Shown: piece by piece, positions 8,238 to 15,817 of the stretch
How positions within the stretch are numbered: position 1 is the stretch's first letter
How the letters are laid out: each line of letters starts with the position of its first letter
Assembly (NCBI GenBank): GCA_021848145.1
Contig: JAJZMX010000004.1
Span: forward strand, 434,001 to 498,000
DNA: 64,000 nt
Direction of reading: 5' to 3'
Origin: a bacterium
GTDB lineage: Bacteria; Patescibacteriota; Saccharimonadia; Saccharimonadales; UBA4665
Notes under the pieces: generated by a model
Databases searched by the model: none
Told to the model about the DNA's origin: nothing
Seen by the model: the letters and a program-made list of their open reading frames with translations, nothing else
Position numbers and translations under genes: made by a program

Positions 8238-9680
8238 TTAATAAAGTTCGAAGACTAAACCCTGGTATCCTTGTAAATTCAGGCTAATTTTATTCTGGCT
8301 AATATTTACATCCGTTTCGTTATTAGAGCTTTGTGTATTAAAAACTTGTTTAATGTTATCGAATGTCTGGTCGATAAGGATTTCAGTTTTTTTCGTGGCT
8401 GGATCATAGTTAGATATTACAAAATAGTCTTTACTATTCGACGAAAAACTCCATGCAATTATCTTATCTTCTAAGCCATTTATTAATTTGTAACTAGAAA
8501 TGTCTGTAGAAAAGATATTTTGAAGGGCAAATAGACGATGGTAATAACCAGAAATTCCAGAATCGACTTCTTGAAATGGTTCACGATTAAGTTGTACTGG
8601 CGTACGAACAGAGAGGCCTTCTGCTTGGCCGTCATATATCATTTTTGACGAAGGAGTAGTCGCTATAATTAATAAGCATAACTGGTGCTTTTCCCAAGGC
8701 ATAGCTGAGGCGGCCCTATCTTCATCATGATTCTCTAAAAAGCGTACTAGCTGTATTTGTTCTTCTAGCTTTAGGTTTAAGTCATGTTTAATTTTATTAA
8801 CGCTATCTTCTTTAAGGAAGTCTAGAAAATCCTTGTCATAACAATAATCAAATCCAAAAGATAACAACTCCTCTTGAGTTTGCCAGTAACTTTCTGCTAT
8901 AAAGATAAAATCAGGGCATTTATCCTTAACTGCTTTAGTTATTTCAGTCCAATATTCAGTTTTTGGATAATAAGCCAGTCGACCCTCCCAGGTCTTAGAA
9001 AATATGCGATTCATTAGTAGCATTGCCATATCGCAACGTACCCCATCCGCAACTTTGCTAATAGAGATCAGCAGATCAATAACCGCACTCCTCAACTCCT
9101 TTGAAAATGCATTCAATTGCAGGACATCACTCCAGGGCTCATATTCGGGGTCTTTGCCTTTGGCATAAATATTTGCTCCTATTTCAATAAATGCCGATGA
9201 ATCATTTAAATCTTGGGGTACGCCCCTAATAAAGTACTCGGGATTAGATTCGGCCCAAGGATGATCAGGAGCAACATGATTAGGTACAAAATCTAGTATT
9301 AACTTCATTCCCCTCTTGTTTATATCTGACCTTACTTTCAACAGATCTTCGTGGCTTCCTATAAGGCTGTTAATATTGTAATCACTAATGCTATATGCCG
9401 ATCCAGCCAAGTCCGTACTAGGATTAAAATCTGGCAGTACAGTCTTCATGTTTTCTATAAAAGCCTGGTCTGAGAGATTTATTTTCAGGGCAACAGAGCT
9501 TCGTTTCCACACTCCCATTAGCCAAACGCTATTAAAGCCTTTTTCTTTTAAGCTATCCCATTCTTCATCAGGTATATTAGATAAATTAATTCCAGTCTTG
9601 TACTTAATGCTCAGCTTATTAAGCCAGATAAGTGTATTGATTTCGTAAATGTTAAGGCTACTACTCATGAGCTTTGCCAC
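8238..9680 (-). CDS. GH13 alpha-amylase family protein
   Basis: 480 aa; LILDFVPNHVAPDHPW, DGVRCDMAMLL, FIFIAESYW, LENHDEDRAAS (four GH13 conserved regions). Confidence 0.9.
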   Translation of the reverse strand: MAKLMSSSLNIYEINTLIWLNKLSIKYKTGINLSNIPDEEWDSLKEKGFNSVWLMGVWKRSSVALKINLSDQAFIENMKTVLPDFNPSTDLAGSAYSISDYNINSLIGSHEDLLKVRSDINKRGMKLILDFVPNHVAPDHPWAESNPEYFIRGVPQDLNDSSAFIEIGANIYAKGKDPEYEPWSDVLQLNAFSKELRSAVIDLLISISKVADGVRCDMAMLLMNRIFSKTWEGRLAYYPKTEYWTEITKAVKDKCPDFIFIAESYWQTQEELLSFGFDYCYDKDFLDFLKEDSVNKIKHDLNLKLEEQIQLVRFLENHDEDRAASAMPWEKHQLCLLIIATTPSSKMIYDGQAEGLSVRTPVQLNREPFQEVDSGISGYYHRLFALQNIFSTDISSYKLINGLEDKIIAWSFSSNSKDYFVISNYDPATKKTEILIDQTFDNIKQVFNTQSSNNETDVNISQNKISLNLQGYQGLVFELY

Positions 9681-10807
9681 GTTACATCAAAACTTTCATT
9701 ATCACTGCCCACAACCGATGGTACTGCCATTGGCTTATTACTACTATTCACCATTTCTATGTTATACGCTGATGAGGTTACTAAATTCTCCATGACCCCT
9801 CCTACTACGGTGGTGGCATTAGAGAACGCAACACTCCCAAAGTCATCAAATGGAATAAGGTTGCCTGACTGGTCAGAAGGATCCTCTTCTATCCATTCTG
9901 CCGAGGATAAGCTTGAGTTATATGCTTCTTTGATTGAAAAAGTGCTTCCATCGGTTGTGTCGGTTATAGATATATTCCATTCGCCAGTTGAAAGTTCGCT
10001 AATCGAAGCTTTAATGGTATCCCCTGGATTAACAGTCATGCTCGTAATGCTAATGGAAGCATTCGGTAACATCTCGTAAAAAGCCTCCGTATACACCTTC
10101 CCACTGGCAGTAACAGTATTGTCAGTCCCAACTTGTATTAAATCGTTTGTTGTGATTCCCCCAATTCCAATCCAAGTAGCATCAGCAGAGGTGGTAGTAC
10201 CATTGCCTGTTGGAGTAGGAGCAACCCATGAACCATTAACAGAAGTATACTTTGCTCCTGAGGCAAAGTACCCTGACCAGTTACTTGAAGTATAGTCTAC
10301 AGATGCCGCTGGCAAACTACTTGAGCTAGTAGAAGTAGAACTACTGGTACCAGAACCCGAGGTACTTCCCGTTGTAGTACTACCTGAAGACGTACTACCA
10401 GAAGAAGTACTACTGCTTGTAGAAGTTGAAGTTGATGGTGGTTGAAGATTTGAAACACTGCTCGAAGGGGAGGTCTTAATTGGAGTTGGTGCTGGGGCTG
10501 GTGCTGGGGCTGGTGCTGGTGCTGGTGCTGGTGCTGGGGCTGGGGCTGGGGCTGGGGCTGGTTTGCTAACTTTATGAGTGGCTGGTTTAGGTTTGGCTTT
10601 TGCCACTTGATGTTTGGCAGTCTTTGGAGGTACTTTAGTAAGTTGTATATTTGTTCTAATTAGGGGGGGCAAAAAGAAGATAAACATTGCCGCCATAAAG
10701 CCAACGATACCAATAACGGGTAAGGTATGCTTCATATAACGAGCGTAAGGTCTGAGCCGTTGAAATAGCACCATTATTGAATTGTCATTTTTGTTTTTGC
10801 TTGACAA
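9665..10807 (-). CDS. G1 family (eqolisin-like) glutamic endopeptidase with TM anchor and Pro-Ala linker
   Basis: 380 aa; SNWSGYFASGAKYTSVNGSWVAPT, ATWIGIGGITTNDLIQVGT (catalytic Gln region), AEWIEEDPS (catalytic Glu region); TTG start or internal ATG possible. Confidence 0.8.
   Translation of the reverse strand: MSSKNKNDNSIMVLFQRLRPYARYMKHTLPVIGIVGFMAAMFIFFLPPLIRTNIQLTKVPPKTAKHQVAKAKPKPATHKVSKPAPAPAPAPAPAPAPAPAPAPAPAPTPIKTSPSSSVSNLQPPSTSTSTSSSTSSGSTSSGSTTTGSTSGSGTSSSTSTSSSSLPAASVDYTSSNWSGYFASGAKYTSVNGSWVAPTPTGNGTTTSADATWIGIGGITTNDLIQVGTDNTVTASGKVYTEAFYEMLPNASISITSMTVNPGDTIKASISELSTGEWNISITDTTDGSTFSIKEAYNSSLSSAEWIEEDPSDQSGNLIPFDDFGSVAFSNATTVVGGVMENLVTSSAYNIEMVNSSNKPMAVPSVVGSDNESFDVTWQSS
10485..10562. 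repeat. Hexanucleotide-type tandem repeat encoding (Pro-Ala)n linker
   Basis: Runs of gctggt/gctggg on + strand, encoding PAPAPAPA... in the minus-strand peptidase. Confidence 0.9.
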
Positions 10808-10820
10808 AAATATTATAGCA

Positions 10821-11096
10821 TTACTTTGTGCGAGTCTTAATAAATAGTGCCCTTTCTTTTTCTGTCATACCACCCCAAATTCCATATTTTTCAGCGTTAG
10901 ACAATGCATAATTTAAACAGTTGAGCCTAACAATACATTTGGCACATATGCGTTTAGCTATTGCTATCTCATCGTCTGACTGCTTCTGCTCATTGTGAGG
11001 ATAGAATATGTCTGGATCCATTTTTAGGCACTCTGCCTTCTGTCGCCAATTAGTATCTGATACATAACCAGAATTAAGCTCAGGATTAGTAGGCAT
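10821..11096 (-). CDS. WhiB-like Fe-S cluster transcriptional regulator
   Basis: AECLKMDPDIFYP...RICAKCIVRLNCLNYAL...YGIWGGMTEKER: Cys...CxxCx5C plus GIWGG. Start taken as MPTNPEL at 11096, one base after the upstream stop. Confidence 0.9.
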   Translation of the reverse strand: MPTNPELNSGYVSDTNWRQKAECLKMDPDIFYPHNEQKQSDDEIAIAKRICAKCIVRLNCLNYALSNAEKYGIWGGMTEKERALFIKTRTK

Positions 11097-11097
11097 T

Positions 11098-12393
11098 CTA
11101 TATATTATGAGCCACGAAGGGAATTGTGACAAAGCTCCGAAGAAGCACAAACATACCGATTATCTTCATTATGCTACCATCTAATATGTCAGAATCTCTA
11201 TAAACTTGACTAAAGGAAATCTTTACTTCCCTAGTGCCAATGCGCTCTAGATCGACCCCTAAACCTTTCCTAGCTTGTGCTTTTTCTTCTTTAGAAATTT
11301 TCAAAAAAACCTGCACCAAAGAATTAATCTGGTCCCCGTTGAGCTCAAGATTAACTAACTCTAGTAATTCTATAATCTTTTCATTAATCTCTTCTTGAAT
11401 ATCTTCACTATCTATTCCAATTAATTCATCTATAGTAAATTCAATATCCTCAATCAACTCGGCGGCTTGAAACTTTATATCTGGAGTCAATTCCTCAAGA
11501 GCTAAAATTATATCTATAACTGATGTAAGATCTTGGTTATCTGTAATTTGGTCTTTGTCTTTATTGCCCAACATGTCTGCCTCAATCCTGATTAGATCTG
11601 CACTGAATAAATCAATTACACCCGTTTCCTCTTTTACTCCCTTGGGAGTCGAAAGTGAATCATATATACCTGTGTCAACCTCATCTTCTAATGTTTCATG
11701 AAACGTAACTTCTTCTTCGACAATTATGGGTTCTGCTAAGGCTTCAATACTAACCTCCTGCTCTTCCATTAGTGATGCTGGTGAACTATTAGTATCATCG
11801 CTAGGTGTATCAAAATTATTTTCTATAAAAATAGCTGCACCTATTTCTTGCTGCAGATGATCGTCTTCTGGAGTAGAAGCTATGCGGGTTTCCAATAATC
11901 TATCTTGAGCCATTGCGGGCTTTATTGTACTTTTGTAGTTTTCTAGAGCTTGTACGCTCGACTCATCAACTATACGGCTCAAAGGCGATTCGCTAGTAGA
12001 ATTTAAAACCGGGTCTAAAGTGGCAGGTTCAGCTAACTCAAATTCTGAGGGATCTATAGTAAGCTTTCTTCTTTCTTCCGCAACTAATATTTTGTTAATT
12101 AAGCTTTCACGCTCAATCTCCACATCAACAGATATTTTATTCGGCTCAATAGTAGAGATTGTCCTAGAAGCTGCCGTATTGGGTTCTTCGCTGTCTAGTA
12201 TTTCTACTTTACTATTGTTTATCTCAATTTCCTGACGCATTTCTTCACTTCCTAGTGAATATGCTTCTAAGATTACTTGGGCCTGTTCCATCGGCAATCC
12301 ACTAAGAAAAGGGCAACGTCGTATGGCTTCTAAAGACGATGTTGCACGTTCCACTTCGCCACTTGGCAATGTGTACTTGTATTCATTTTCCAT
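11098..12393 (-). CDS. Hypothetical acidic protein, probable operon partner of WhiB
   Basis: 431 aa Glu/Asp/Ile/Ser-rich; stop and WhiB start are arranged TAGAATG; possible TM near the C-terminus. Confidence 0.7.
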   Translation of the reverse strand: MENEYKYTLPSGEVERATSSLEAIRRCPFLSGLPMEQAQVILEAYSLGSEEMRQEIEINNSKVEILDSEEPNTAASRTISTIEPNKISVDVEIERESLINKILVAEERRKLTIDPSEFELAEPATLDPVLNSTSESPLSRIVDESSVQALENYKSTIKPAMAQDRLLETRIASTPEDDHLQQEIGAAIFIENNFDTPSDDTNSSPASLMEEQEVSIEALAEPIIVEEEVTFHETLEDEVDTGIYDSLSTPKGVKEETGVIDLFSADLIRIEADMLGNKDKDQITDNQDLTSVIDIILALEELTPDIKFQAAELIEDIEFTIDELIGIDSEDIQEEINEKIIELLELVNLELNGDQINSLVQVFLKISKEEKAQARKGLGVDLERIGTREVKISFSQVYRDSDILDGSIMKIIGMFVLLRSFVTIPFVAHNI

Positions 12394-12399
12394 TGTTAA

Positions 12400-12669
12400 T
12401 TAATTATCTGCTTGCCCAGCTTCTGTTCCACTAAAAAACTTCTGCTCTATTTGCTGACTAATAATAAGGATGCTTGGATCATTATCAGGCAATGTTTCGA
12501 GATGCCTAAGTACGGGGAGTGCAAATTGCCTGCACTTAGGATTATCTAGAAAATCTTCACAGAGAGTATTGTCTATTGGATTTGGCTTTCCGATAAGATG
12601 ATCTAAATTCAATAGCCGCAAATACCTAATGCCTTCCTTTTCTTGCCCGCCCTTTTCTATTTCAGCCAT
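12400..12669 (-). CDS. Hypothetical protein
   Basis: 89 aa ORF closely spaced upstream of 11098..12393. Confidence 0.6.
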   Translation of the reverse strand: MAEIEKGGQEKEGIRYLRLLNLDHLIGKPNPIDNTLCEDFLDNPKCRQFALPVLRHLETLPDNDPSILIISQQIEQKFFSGTEAGQADN

Positions 12670-12768
12670 TTTATTAATTTTACCACTAAATTTCGACTAA
12701 TCAGAACAACAACTCTTTGGTCTTATTGGGCATCAGGGATCTTATGTGATTGACTTATCGATCACTAA

Positions 12769-12936
12769 TTAAGCTGCAAAACCTCTTTCAGATACATAAT
12801 GGTCGTTTCTTAGCATGAAACCCCTCATTAACTTATTGTCCATAAATTTTTCAACGATACCTTTTGTGTTTTCCTGCTTACCACCATTAAGCGCTATGCC
12901 TCTGAATCCTTTAGATAACTGACCGACAAAATCCAT
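12769..12936 (-). CDS. Small protein (55 aa) or gene remnant
   Basis: Manual translation MDFVGQLSKGFRGIALNGGKQENTKGIVEKFMDNKLMRGFMLRNDHYVSERGFAA*; below the ORF-track cutoff. Confidence 0.45.
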   Translation of the reverse strand: MDFVGQLSKGFRGIALNGGKQENTKGIVEKFMDNKLMRGFMLRNDHYVSERGFAA

Positions 12937-12942
12937 TCTCTT

Positions 12943-13059
12943 CTACATTTTTATTCTTTCGGCTAATGCTTTAATTGAGTATTCTTAAACATTTTTGGCT
13001 TCACTATCTGAAAATCCCGAATCATGCTGAACTTGTTTTATTAACCAAAGCTCACCCAT
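12943..13059 (-). pseudogene. Short ORF with internal in-frame TAA (12985..12987)
   Basis: MGELWLIKQVQHDSGFSDSEAKNV*EYSIKALAERIKM* reads as one peptide interrupted by TAA. Confidence 0.35.
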
Positions 13060-13183
13060 GGTACTTTCTACTTAACACACTAGATTAACCAACTAGTGTA
13101 ATTAGGTACATTCATTAATCCTACATACGACTAGAAATATTACACTAGCGCAGTCTCAGGTTTTATTGATAGATTTATAAATA

Positions 13184-15379
13184 ATGGCAAGACGATTATT
13201 TAATGTTGGCGGAAAGTTAAACTTTTATGAGCAATTTTTTCCGGCTCGGCCAAGACGACTTTGGTCACGTGCCCGGAAGTTTGTATCTAACCCTATAAGC
13301 ACACATCAATTTGGGGCAGCAACTTCTCGGAATAAAAACTACATTTCTTGGCTTGAAAGAGAGTCGATGCTTTTTGGAGCGAATAAAATAGCCAAGAAAT
13401 ACTCGGCTCAAGGTAGTATGTGGCAACGGCCGTTTGCCAGACCAAGACCAAGAACGGCCGTCAAGATGGCCTCCGTTTGGTACACCGCTTACGCACCTTC
13501 GCTTGTAACAAGGAATGGTGAATCAATCTTGGCAACACTTGGAGATGATAAACTCTGGGATTCATTCCAACAGATAGGAATTGACGCGGTTCACACTGGG
13601 CCCGTTAAGCTCGCGGGTGGCATAAAAGGATGGAAGCAAACTCCAAGCATTGACGGTCACTTTGACAGAATAAGTACTAAAATCGATACGATTTTTGGCA
13701 CTGAAACGGAATTTAAGAAAATGAGTGATACGGCTAGTAGACATAACGGGATTGTCATTGATGACATCATCCCTGGCCATACTGGAAAAGGTTTTGATTT
13801 CCGCCTCGCAGAAATGGGTCATGGTGAATACCCGGGCATATACCACATGGTGGAGATAGCACCAGAGGACTGGAACATATTACCAGAAGTACCCAAAGGT
13901 CAAGATTCAGTGAATCTATCCCCGGAAGCGGAAGAACAGCTAAAGTCCAAGGGTTACATAATAGGTAGGCTTCAAAGGGTAATATTCTATGAGCCTAAAA
14001 TAAAAGAAACTAACTGGAGCGCTACCGAAGAAGTTAGAGGAGTTGACGGAAAAGTTAGGCGCTGGGTTTATTTACACTACTTCAAAGATGGACAACCTTC
14101 CATTAATTGGCTTGACCCGTCCTTCGCTGGGATGAAACTCGTTATAGGGGATGCCTTGCACTCACTTGGAGATTTAGGTTCTAATGCCCTGAGGCTTGAC
14201 GCCAATGGCTTTTTAGGTGTAGAAAAATCAAGCGAAGATTTACCTGCATGGAGCGAGGGTCATCCCTTGAGTGAAGCGGCAAATTTACTAATCTCCGGAA
14301 TGGTCAGAAAAGTTGGCGGCTTCACATTTCAGGAGCTCAACTTATCTATAGACGATATAAAAATTATGAGCCAAGCAGGTGCCGACCTGTCTTATGACTT
14401 CATTAACAGACCCGCCTATCACCATGCTTTGGTTAAAGGAGATACAGAATTTCTGAGATTAATGTTGCGCTCAGCCCATGAGTTAGGGGTTGACCAAGCC
14501 TCTTTAGTGCATGCCTTACAAAACCATGACGAACTGACCTTTGAGCTAGTCCATCTTTGGACTGTTCATAAAGATGACGAATATGTTTTTAGAGGCGACA
14601 AGATTACAGGCCTTGATCTAAGAAAACTGATCAGAAGCGAGCTCGAAACAGCGCTCACTGGCGATACTGCACCATATAATTTAACGTTCACCACAAACGG
14701 CATTGCTTGCACGACCACTAGTGTAATAACGGCAGTATTGGGCTACCGAGACTTAGAGAAGTTAAGACAAGAAGATATTGAAGTTATTAAAAATGTCCAC
14801 TTGCTTCTGGCAAAATTCAACGCCTGGCAACCAGGAGTCTTCGCTTTGTCAGGTTGGGATTTATGCGGAGCTTTAACTCTAGACAGAACAAGCGTAAAGG
14901 ATCTACTAGAAAGCGGCGATACACGCTGGATTAACAGAGGCGGCTATGACCTAATGGGGTTTAACCCGGACGCTAAACTAAGCAGTGCCGGCATACCATT
15001 AGCACGTAGCTTATATGGCTCACTCAATAAGCAGCTAGAAGATAGTGATTCTTTTGCTTCGCAGTTGATGCACATTATTGAAGTAAGAAAAAACTATGGA
15101 ATAGATACAGCAAGACAAATCGATATTCCTGAAGTATCAAATAAAAGCCTATTAGTAATGGTGCATAAACTAGAAGATAGCGACAACTTACAACTAACAG
15201 TATTGAATTTCTGTGGGGAGTATATTTCTGGAAGTATAAATTCAGAGCATTTAATACCTGGCTCTATAGTTTTAGACATGTCAACAAATCAACAACTAGC
15301 CATTATTGACGACCTTAATACATTTTCGCTTGCCCTTATGCCCTATCAGGGACTATCACTGCTGGTCACTTTCCCCTAA
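13184..15379 (+). CDS. GH13 family enzyme, trehalose synthase/maltosyltransferase-like
   Basis: 731 aa; [38 protein letters not shown] conserved regions. Confidence 0.8.
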
Positions 15380-15817
15380 CGGAGTTGTTCTTTGATCTTC
15401 TTTTGTTTCAAGTAGAACATCCTCCTTTTGGTCAGCCGGTTTTAAGATGTTGTCAACCAACTGATCTAATTGGTTGTCAGATAAATTGGCTTTAACAGCA
15501 TAGCCTTCTATGCCCATGCCTCTCAATCCTGCTGGTGCATCAGCTTCATTTAAGTTAGAAATTATAAATACTGGAATATTACGCCCCCAATCGTTCTTGC
15601 GCATGGTCTCTAAAATTTGGTCACCAGCAATTTTAGGCACCATAAGGTCAAGTAGAACTAAATCCGGTAACTCATTCTGGATAATATTTAGGGCCGCTAC
15701 GCCATCATATGCCGTCATACACTTATAACCAAGTAGCTCTAGTCTTGTCTTATATATATCCGCTAAACTAACATTATCTTCTACGATTACTATTTTCTGT
15801 TGTCTAGATTGATCCAT
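15356..15817 (-). CDS. Response regulator receiver (CheY-like) protein
   Basis: [47 protein letters not shown]; no DNA-binding output domain. Confidence 0.9.

Follow-up and report, generated by a model that had tools for sequence, protein, structure and literature searches.

Known WhiB-like proteins and their relation to the locus

WhiB-like (Wbl) proteins have been described as a family exclusive to Actinobacteria (PMC6282962, PMC10245118). Binding of WhiB1 to sigma is driven by the aromatic residues F17, F18, and W60, and the substitution H516A in sigma A of M. tuberculosis abolishes the binding of WhiB3 (PMC10245118). The protein analysed here shares with the actinobacterial family (PF02467; WhiB1, WhiB2/WhmD, WhiB3/WhiD, and WhiB7) the four cysteines with CxxCx5C spacing, the G[IV]WGG turn, the F-[FY] and W aromatics, the basic C-terminus, and a length of ~90 aa. 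The O2- or NO-sensitive [4Fe-4S] cluster that marks the family is predicted for it as well. It differs in that it comes from a class of Patescibacteria, in which the sigma factor has no H516-P517, and in that its identity to these proteins does not exceed ~50%. WhiBs of phages (mycobacteriophage and Gordonia phage; PHROG 472 and 14459) have the same domain, with up to 44% identity over 82 residues; in contrast to them, the present copy is chromosomal and its neighbourhood is conserved in the genus. A further relative, from the same class of organisms, is a sigma70-WhiB fusion in genome G291, where the WhiB domain and sigma regions 2, 3, and 4 form one polypeptide, whereas the gene studied here is a stand-alone one.

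The WhiB gene and its genomic neighbourhood

The window, i.e., the whole analysed stretch of 64,000 nucleotides (G000:C5:434001-498000), belongs to a genome of 950 kb (0.95 Mb) with 97.8% completeness and 0.05% contamination. The features of the region are as follows.

8238..9680, minus strand: GH13 alpha-amylase-type enzyme, 480 aa (PF00128, E 2e-17), kept in the same-genus genome G195 (42% identity)
9665..10807, minus strand: peptidase A4 family protein, 380 aa, with a Pro-rich stalk, directly downstream of WhiB (PF01828, E 5.8e-32)
10821..11096, minus strand: WhiB-like, predicted [4Fe-4S] regulator, 91 aa (PF02467, E 1.4e-23; WhiB1 and related proteins in PDB, E ~1e-15; PHROG WhiB families)
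11098..12393, minus strand: acidic 431-aa protein (p431) of a nameless family, a member of which immediately follows each p89 homologue found
12400..12669, minus strand: 89-aa partner protein (p89), with profile matches in 13 of 394 genomes of the class
13184..15379, plus strand: 731-aa protein, amylase-like by sequence reading only, divergently oriented to p89 and kept in G195 (72% identity to L033:12596-14794)
15356..15817, minus strand: response-regulator receiver protein (receiver by sequence reading only), anchoring the same site in G094 and G195 (86–88% identity)

The WhiB layout that had been noticed at 10821..11096 was confirmed. The 91-aa ORF (start ATG at 11096, stop at 10821) reached 83.7 bits with the Pfam Whib profile at a cut-off of 23.6. 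All four cysteines are present (Cys23, Cys51, Cys54, and Cys60; C-x27-C-x2-C-x5-C), the GIWGG turn at residues 72–76 fits the G[I/V]W[G/A]G pattern, and W17 is present as well. The best matches in PDB were a WhiB protein (8dy9/8dy7) and WhiB1 of M. tuberculosis (5oay, 6ono). Since these matches to solved structures, with E ~1e-15, are far above chance, a random similarity is ruled out, and the predicted product is beyond doubt a genuine member of the WhiB family. Alignment to WhiB1 places the sigma-docking aromatics at F31, Y32, and W74, with Tyr replacing the second Phe. The protein is basic (computed pI 8.4). When 16 WhiBs of the class were aligned, 11 columns were invariant, including all four cysteines. 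The same genome encodes a second, weak WhiB-like protein (L002; G000:C5:224679-224816), a 159-aa frame with CxxCx5C cysteines, the match of which stops before the GIWGG turn and lies under the Pfam cut-off; this also applies to L107.

Gene order in G195 matches that of the window (GH13 – peptidase A4 – WhiB – others – amylase – response regulator), and the peptidase A4 protein has its ortholog at the corresponding place (L033:5705-6841, 43% identity). In G094, a genome of the same genus, the response regulator likewise lies next to WhiB (86% identity). Identity of the window WhiB to its positional counterparts in G094 and G195 was 41–43% vs. 86–88% for the response regulator, which indicates that the gene is fast-evolving or has been replaced. 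Both of these genomes lack the 89-aa and 431-aa genes. The ~500 bases that separate the 89-aa gene from the divergently oriented gene for the 731-aa amylase-like protein (positions 12670–13183) contain no long ORF. A promoter scan of the region gave 7 sites compared to 8.0 in shuffles, i.e., no excess.

No 16S rRNA gene was found in the assembly of the window genome. Among its class relatives, an exact site for the TM7-specific 16S primer TM7580F (sequence from PMC6073563) was present in at least 12 of 30, a floor value given that many metagenome assemblies have no 16S gene, vs. 3 of 306 in the remaining classes of the phylum sample. Because of this enrichment, the genome most likely belongs to Saccharibacteria (TM7) within Patescibacteria, the class name being assigned indirectly.

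Distribution of WhiB genes in the class

The window WhiB is no isolated oddity, as 28% of the sampled class carries WhiB. Genes above the family cut-off were detected in 110 of 394 class genomes and in 78 of 153 genera, with a patchy distribution and up to five copies per genome. In an even sample of the phylum, divided into 36 and 348 genomes by the kinship column, WhiB was present in 18 of the 36 class members vs. none of the 348 genomes of other classes. Corynebacterium glutamicum was the sole carrier among 14 control genomes, and WhiBs found in a scan of named genomes were almost all actinobacterial, with one record titled Acidobacteria. This record (L161; JABBNV010000006.1, Acidobacteria bacterium G2_11) contains two WhiB genes above the cut-off and may be mislabelled or represent another non-actinobacterial case. 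The view that the family is confined to Actinobacteria and their phages fails with these 110 genomes of a Patescibacteria-type class, while the family membership of the window WhiB stands. The suggestion that this WhiB lies outside its usual lineage is thereby supported, its genome not being actinobacterial. Our literature search, with subscription papers and preprints outside its scope, returned no paper reporting WhiB in Saccharibacteria.

At L062 (G078), L078 (G291), L047 (G112), and L091 (G323), two to four diverged copies of WhiB are arranged in tandem. WhiB domains also occur inside long proteins of 300–960 aa (L094:3088-5970, L029:427-1788, L061, L075, L076, and L108:6895-8016), the other parts of which have no assigned domain, and the long protein of L029 gave weak matches to MarR-type HTH.

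Linkage with the housekeeping sigma factor

The idea of a sigma-factor partner, part of the original prediction, gained support from other genomes. WhiB lies in a dnaG/rpoD/polA block in 25 of the 89 WhiB-bearing class genomes examined (families f1, f2, and f12), in the order dnaG > rpoD > (< kinase) > WhiB > polA and on the strand of rpoD; examples are L054 (G061:C36), L108 (G004:C3), L111 (G051:C5), and L039 (G199:C2). The block genes (rpoD, dephospho-CoA-kinase-like, polA, and dnaG) were obtained by clustering the neighbours of WhiB and named by sequence reading, sigma alone being profile-tested. The same profile, which does detect actinobacterial sigmas, found a sigma gene within 4 kb in 0 of 80 actinobacterial WhiB loci. 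The nominal binomial value for the rpoD linkage (8e-22 at 2%) is meaningless as a probability because of shared descent. The block accommodates WhiBs of unlike actinobacterial affinity, WhiB2-like (L014) and WhiB1-like (L108:4811, L028), and in G061 it contains two WhiBs together with two extra sigma-like genes. The fusion of G291 (L078:5010-6377, minus strand; G291:C14) is a single ORF of 455 aa, in which sigma regions 2, 3, and 4, with regions 2 and 4 above the cut-off, are followed by the WhiB domain. Three more WhiB genes are located beside it on the other strand of G291:C14. Since WhiB in the class is often located in the interval from rpoD to polA, and one WhiB is part of a sigma fusion, the housekeeping sigma is the predicted partner, pointing to class WhiB as a sigma-linked regulator. 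The window WhiB itself is not near rpoD, which in its genome is located on contig C3 with region 4 at ~136877–137035.

The RpoD of the window genome reads KLRKHRDAKKLHDYIK where mycobacterial SigA has KLRHPSRSQVLRDYLD, so that the His516-Pro517 pair is absent. The region 4 tail of the principal sigma of the class is LRKH(R/K)(D/E) vs. LRHPSRS in mycobacterial SigA, with Lys at the His516 and His at the Pro517 position in every copy read (~30). This tail was seen in L352–L357, L390, L400, L407, and the rpoD of WhiB loci, as well as in several other Patescibacteria. Loss of H516-P517 as a class-specific adaptation was considered and rejected. Because His-Pro is retained in part of the other Patescibacteria and altered in the same way in others, the comparison indicates that it predates WhiB or is unrelated to WhiB. 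The missing contact limits what may be said of the mechanism, not of the membership of WhiB in its family. If class WhiBs bind the sigma of their own genome, details of the contact surface must be different, and binding may have been re-tuned, since class RpoD is without the His516-Pro517 contacted by mycobacterial WhiBs.

The position of these genes also bears on whether WhiB is a mobile passenger, brought by phages or plasmids and without a settled role. WhiB is common in actinobacteriophages (674 matching records) and actinobacterial plasmids (315 records), its distribution in the class is patchy, and the viral identities of many class WhiBs are nearly as high as the cellular ones. However, the window WhiB occupies a genus-conserved chromosomal site between metabolic genes, with no viral neighbours among those examined, and in 25 genomes the dnaG-rpoD-polA block harbours WhiB. 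Moreover, for most of the class copies closest to actinobacterial ones the best cellular identity exceeds the best viral one. We consider the passenger explanation rather unlikely.

The 89-aa/431-aa gene pair

The original prediction described WhiB as starting one base past the 431-aa acidic ORF (TAGAATG), with the 89-aa ORF just upstream, and combined the three into an operon. The description was accurate: all three genes are on the minus strand, the 431-aa stop and the WhiB start are arranged as TAG-A-ATG, and the 89-aa ORF precedes the 431-aa start by 6 bases. The gap of only one base suggests that WhiB is co-expressed with the pair in the window genome. The three-gene operon was rejected, as the pair is conserved in 13 of 13 loci and WhiB is adjacent in only two of them. 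Eleven of the 13 class genomes matched by the p89 profile, the window genome included, belong to the window's own family, and in each of the 13 loci (the window, L113, L114, L115, L117, L046, L121, L122, and L133–L137) an ORF of the 431-aa family starts right after the p89 homologue. The pair typically consists of a ~90 aa protein and an acidic protein of 430–600 aa with ordered ends. Synteny of the trio in related genomes, proposed earlier as a check, was found only in the window and in G200. In the latter the order is WhiB – 89 – 431 on the same strand, with WhiB directly upstream of the pair, unlike the window. In G088, G097, G199, G279, and G289 the pair and WhiB are located on different contigs or tens to hundreds of kb apart. 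A single unprompted adjacency out of six is no more than suggestive, and gene order indicates that the conserved unit is the 89-aa/431-aa pair, independent of WhiB, and not a trio.

Both proteins belong to families without a name. p89 had no significant match in Pfam, NCBIfam, PHROGs, PDB sequences, or Foldseek. Its family consensus is YLRLLGL...FLDxCGEHARPxLxGLESLxPDDPRY, and AlphaFold2 predicted four helices with a mean pLDDT of 78. p431 is acidic (93 D+E vs. 36 K+R, computed pI 4.2) and had no match in Pfam, NCBIfam, PHROG, or PDB; its best Foldseek match had an E-value of 0.48 at low model confidence. It is composed of a conserved N-terminal domain (~1–60) with the family motif ..YxRxDGTxExAxxxxEAxxxCPxLG.., a long variable disordered acidic middle without fixed sequence, and a helical C-terminal domain (~290–420). 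In the AlphaFold2 model, 250 of 431 residues were below pLDDT 50, with order in the N- and C-terminal parts only.

The acidic protein had been proposed as a co-factor or antagonist of WhiB, a role without comparative support because the linkage of the trio is not conserved. The broader form of this idea is a single regulatory module of the 89-aa protein, the 431-aa protein, and WhiB, in which the acidic protein would act as a DNA mimic or by sequestering or presenting WhiB. The one-base spacing on a common strand, the placement of WhiB directly upstream of the same pair in G200, and the combination of an acidic, mostly disordered p431 with a basic WhiB are consistent with it. Nevertheless, 11 of the 13 pair loci have no adjoining WhiB within the flanks read, WhiB is far from the pair or on a different contig in five other pair-bearing genomes, WhiBs of the same genus occupy the same site without the pair, and the two WhiB-adjacent cases differ in gene order. 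A shared module is quite unlikely.

Origin of the WhiB genes

Actinobacteria are the known host phylum of Saccharibacteria. WhiBs of the class were compared by identity with 126 actinobacterial and 86 viral WhiB domains. Top identity to an actinobacterial copy ranged from 96% (L010 vs. Rhodococcus) down to ~50% (window), and 55 of 111 class WhiBs had a higher identity to an actinobacterial copy than to the rest of the class. The domains of L010, L014, L019, L022, and L108 were 96, 88, 85, 86, and 74% identical to actinobacterial ones, respectively. A phylogeny with CPR homologues, suggested in the original prediction, showed that the class WhiBs are not one clade: the AU test rejects such a grouping (dlnL 315, p 9e-59; 54 rows, 68 columns). 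The tree contains starred class-actinobacterial pairs, L019 among them, and class rows nested among Acidimicrobiia rows; many of its forks are without resolution at 68 columns, and its rows were picked to include actinobacteria-like WhiBs, so the number of transfers is not readable from it. Since several class WhiBs are 74–96% identical to actinobacterial ones, it is safe to propose that the class acquired WhiB from Actinobacteria more than once. The earlier idea of transfer from Actinobacteria is thus well supported for the class as a whole and not for a named donor of the window copy. The latter is at most ~50% identical to any other sampled WhiB and falls within a group without resolution in the tree; by this divergence, it appears too distant for its donor to be named.

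A single old gain would make WhiB ancestral in the class, its scattered placement in the tree being an artefact of fast evolution and an alignment of 68 columns. This would agree with the few columns and poorly resolved forks. It would also agree with the fast evolution suggested by 41–43% identity of the genus positional counterparts vs. 86–88% for the flanking gene. We regard it as very unlikely given the AU p-value of 9e-59 against one clade; besides, the pairs of L010 with Rhodococcus (96%) and of L019 with its starred actinobacterial partner are impossible from one old gain. An old gain followed by later replacements is possible.

Contamination is excluded for key cases such as G051:C5. 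The WhiB on this 334 kb contig shares 88% identity with an actinobacterial copy, and the gene is not a contaminant because a TM7-type 16S site and a class-type rpoD tail are present on the same contig. G098, G077, and G111 are single-contig genomes with WhiB. The contig-level check covers the key cases, L010 and L004 on short contigs being the least secure. An actinobacterial contig binned into the window genome, an idea that draws on the described exclusivity of the family (PMC6282962), is extremely improbable and was rejected, as WhiB is located at ~445 kb on a contig of 504 kb, contamination of the genome is 0.05%, GC content of the window is 41%, neighbouring genes are 72–88% identical to those of a same-genus genome, and the family is widespread in the class.

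Implications

We consider it probable that the window gene encodes a true Wbl transcription regulator of a Saccharibacteria-type (Patescibacteria) genome, descended from actinobacterial Wbl genes, with the housekeeping sigma as presumed partner and the 89-aa/431-aa pair independent of it. The analysis shows that the window gene belongs to the family by sequence, that WhiB is restricted to this class in the phylum sample and has more than one origin within it, and that the chromosomal site is conserved in the genus. Its partnership with the housekeeping sigma is deduced from other genomes, namely the rpoD-polA position and one sigma fusion. The 89-aa and 431-aa genes form a separate conserved pair, possibly co-expressed with WhiB in the window genome, the comparison giving no sign of a shared function. 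A more far-reaching reading, to which we give slightly less than an even chance, is that Saccharibacteria repeatedly captured Wbl genes of their actinobacterial hosts, the products of which came to serve as cofactors of the recipients' housekeeping sigma. The interface would have been re-tuned (Lys-His for His-Pro) and the gene often placed between rpoD and polA and once fused to sigma, the window copy being a diverged member.

The window protein adds a member to a known family, in a lineage where it was not expected, and the class-wide picture is the more interesting one. It gives Wbl proteins a second, wide home, most probably in the class of ultrasmall bacteria that have Actinobacteria as known hosts, and makes Wbl a gene family for counting host-to-epibiont transfer. 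For genomes of such small size, WhiB is a candidate regulator that senses redox state or NO. Directly testable predictions on the coevolution of Wbl proteins and sigma factors follow from the linkage to rpoD, the fusion of sigma with WhiB, and the altered residues at the sigma contact.
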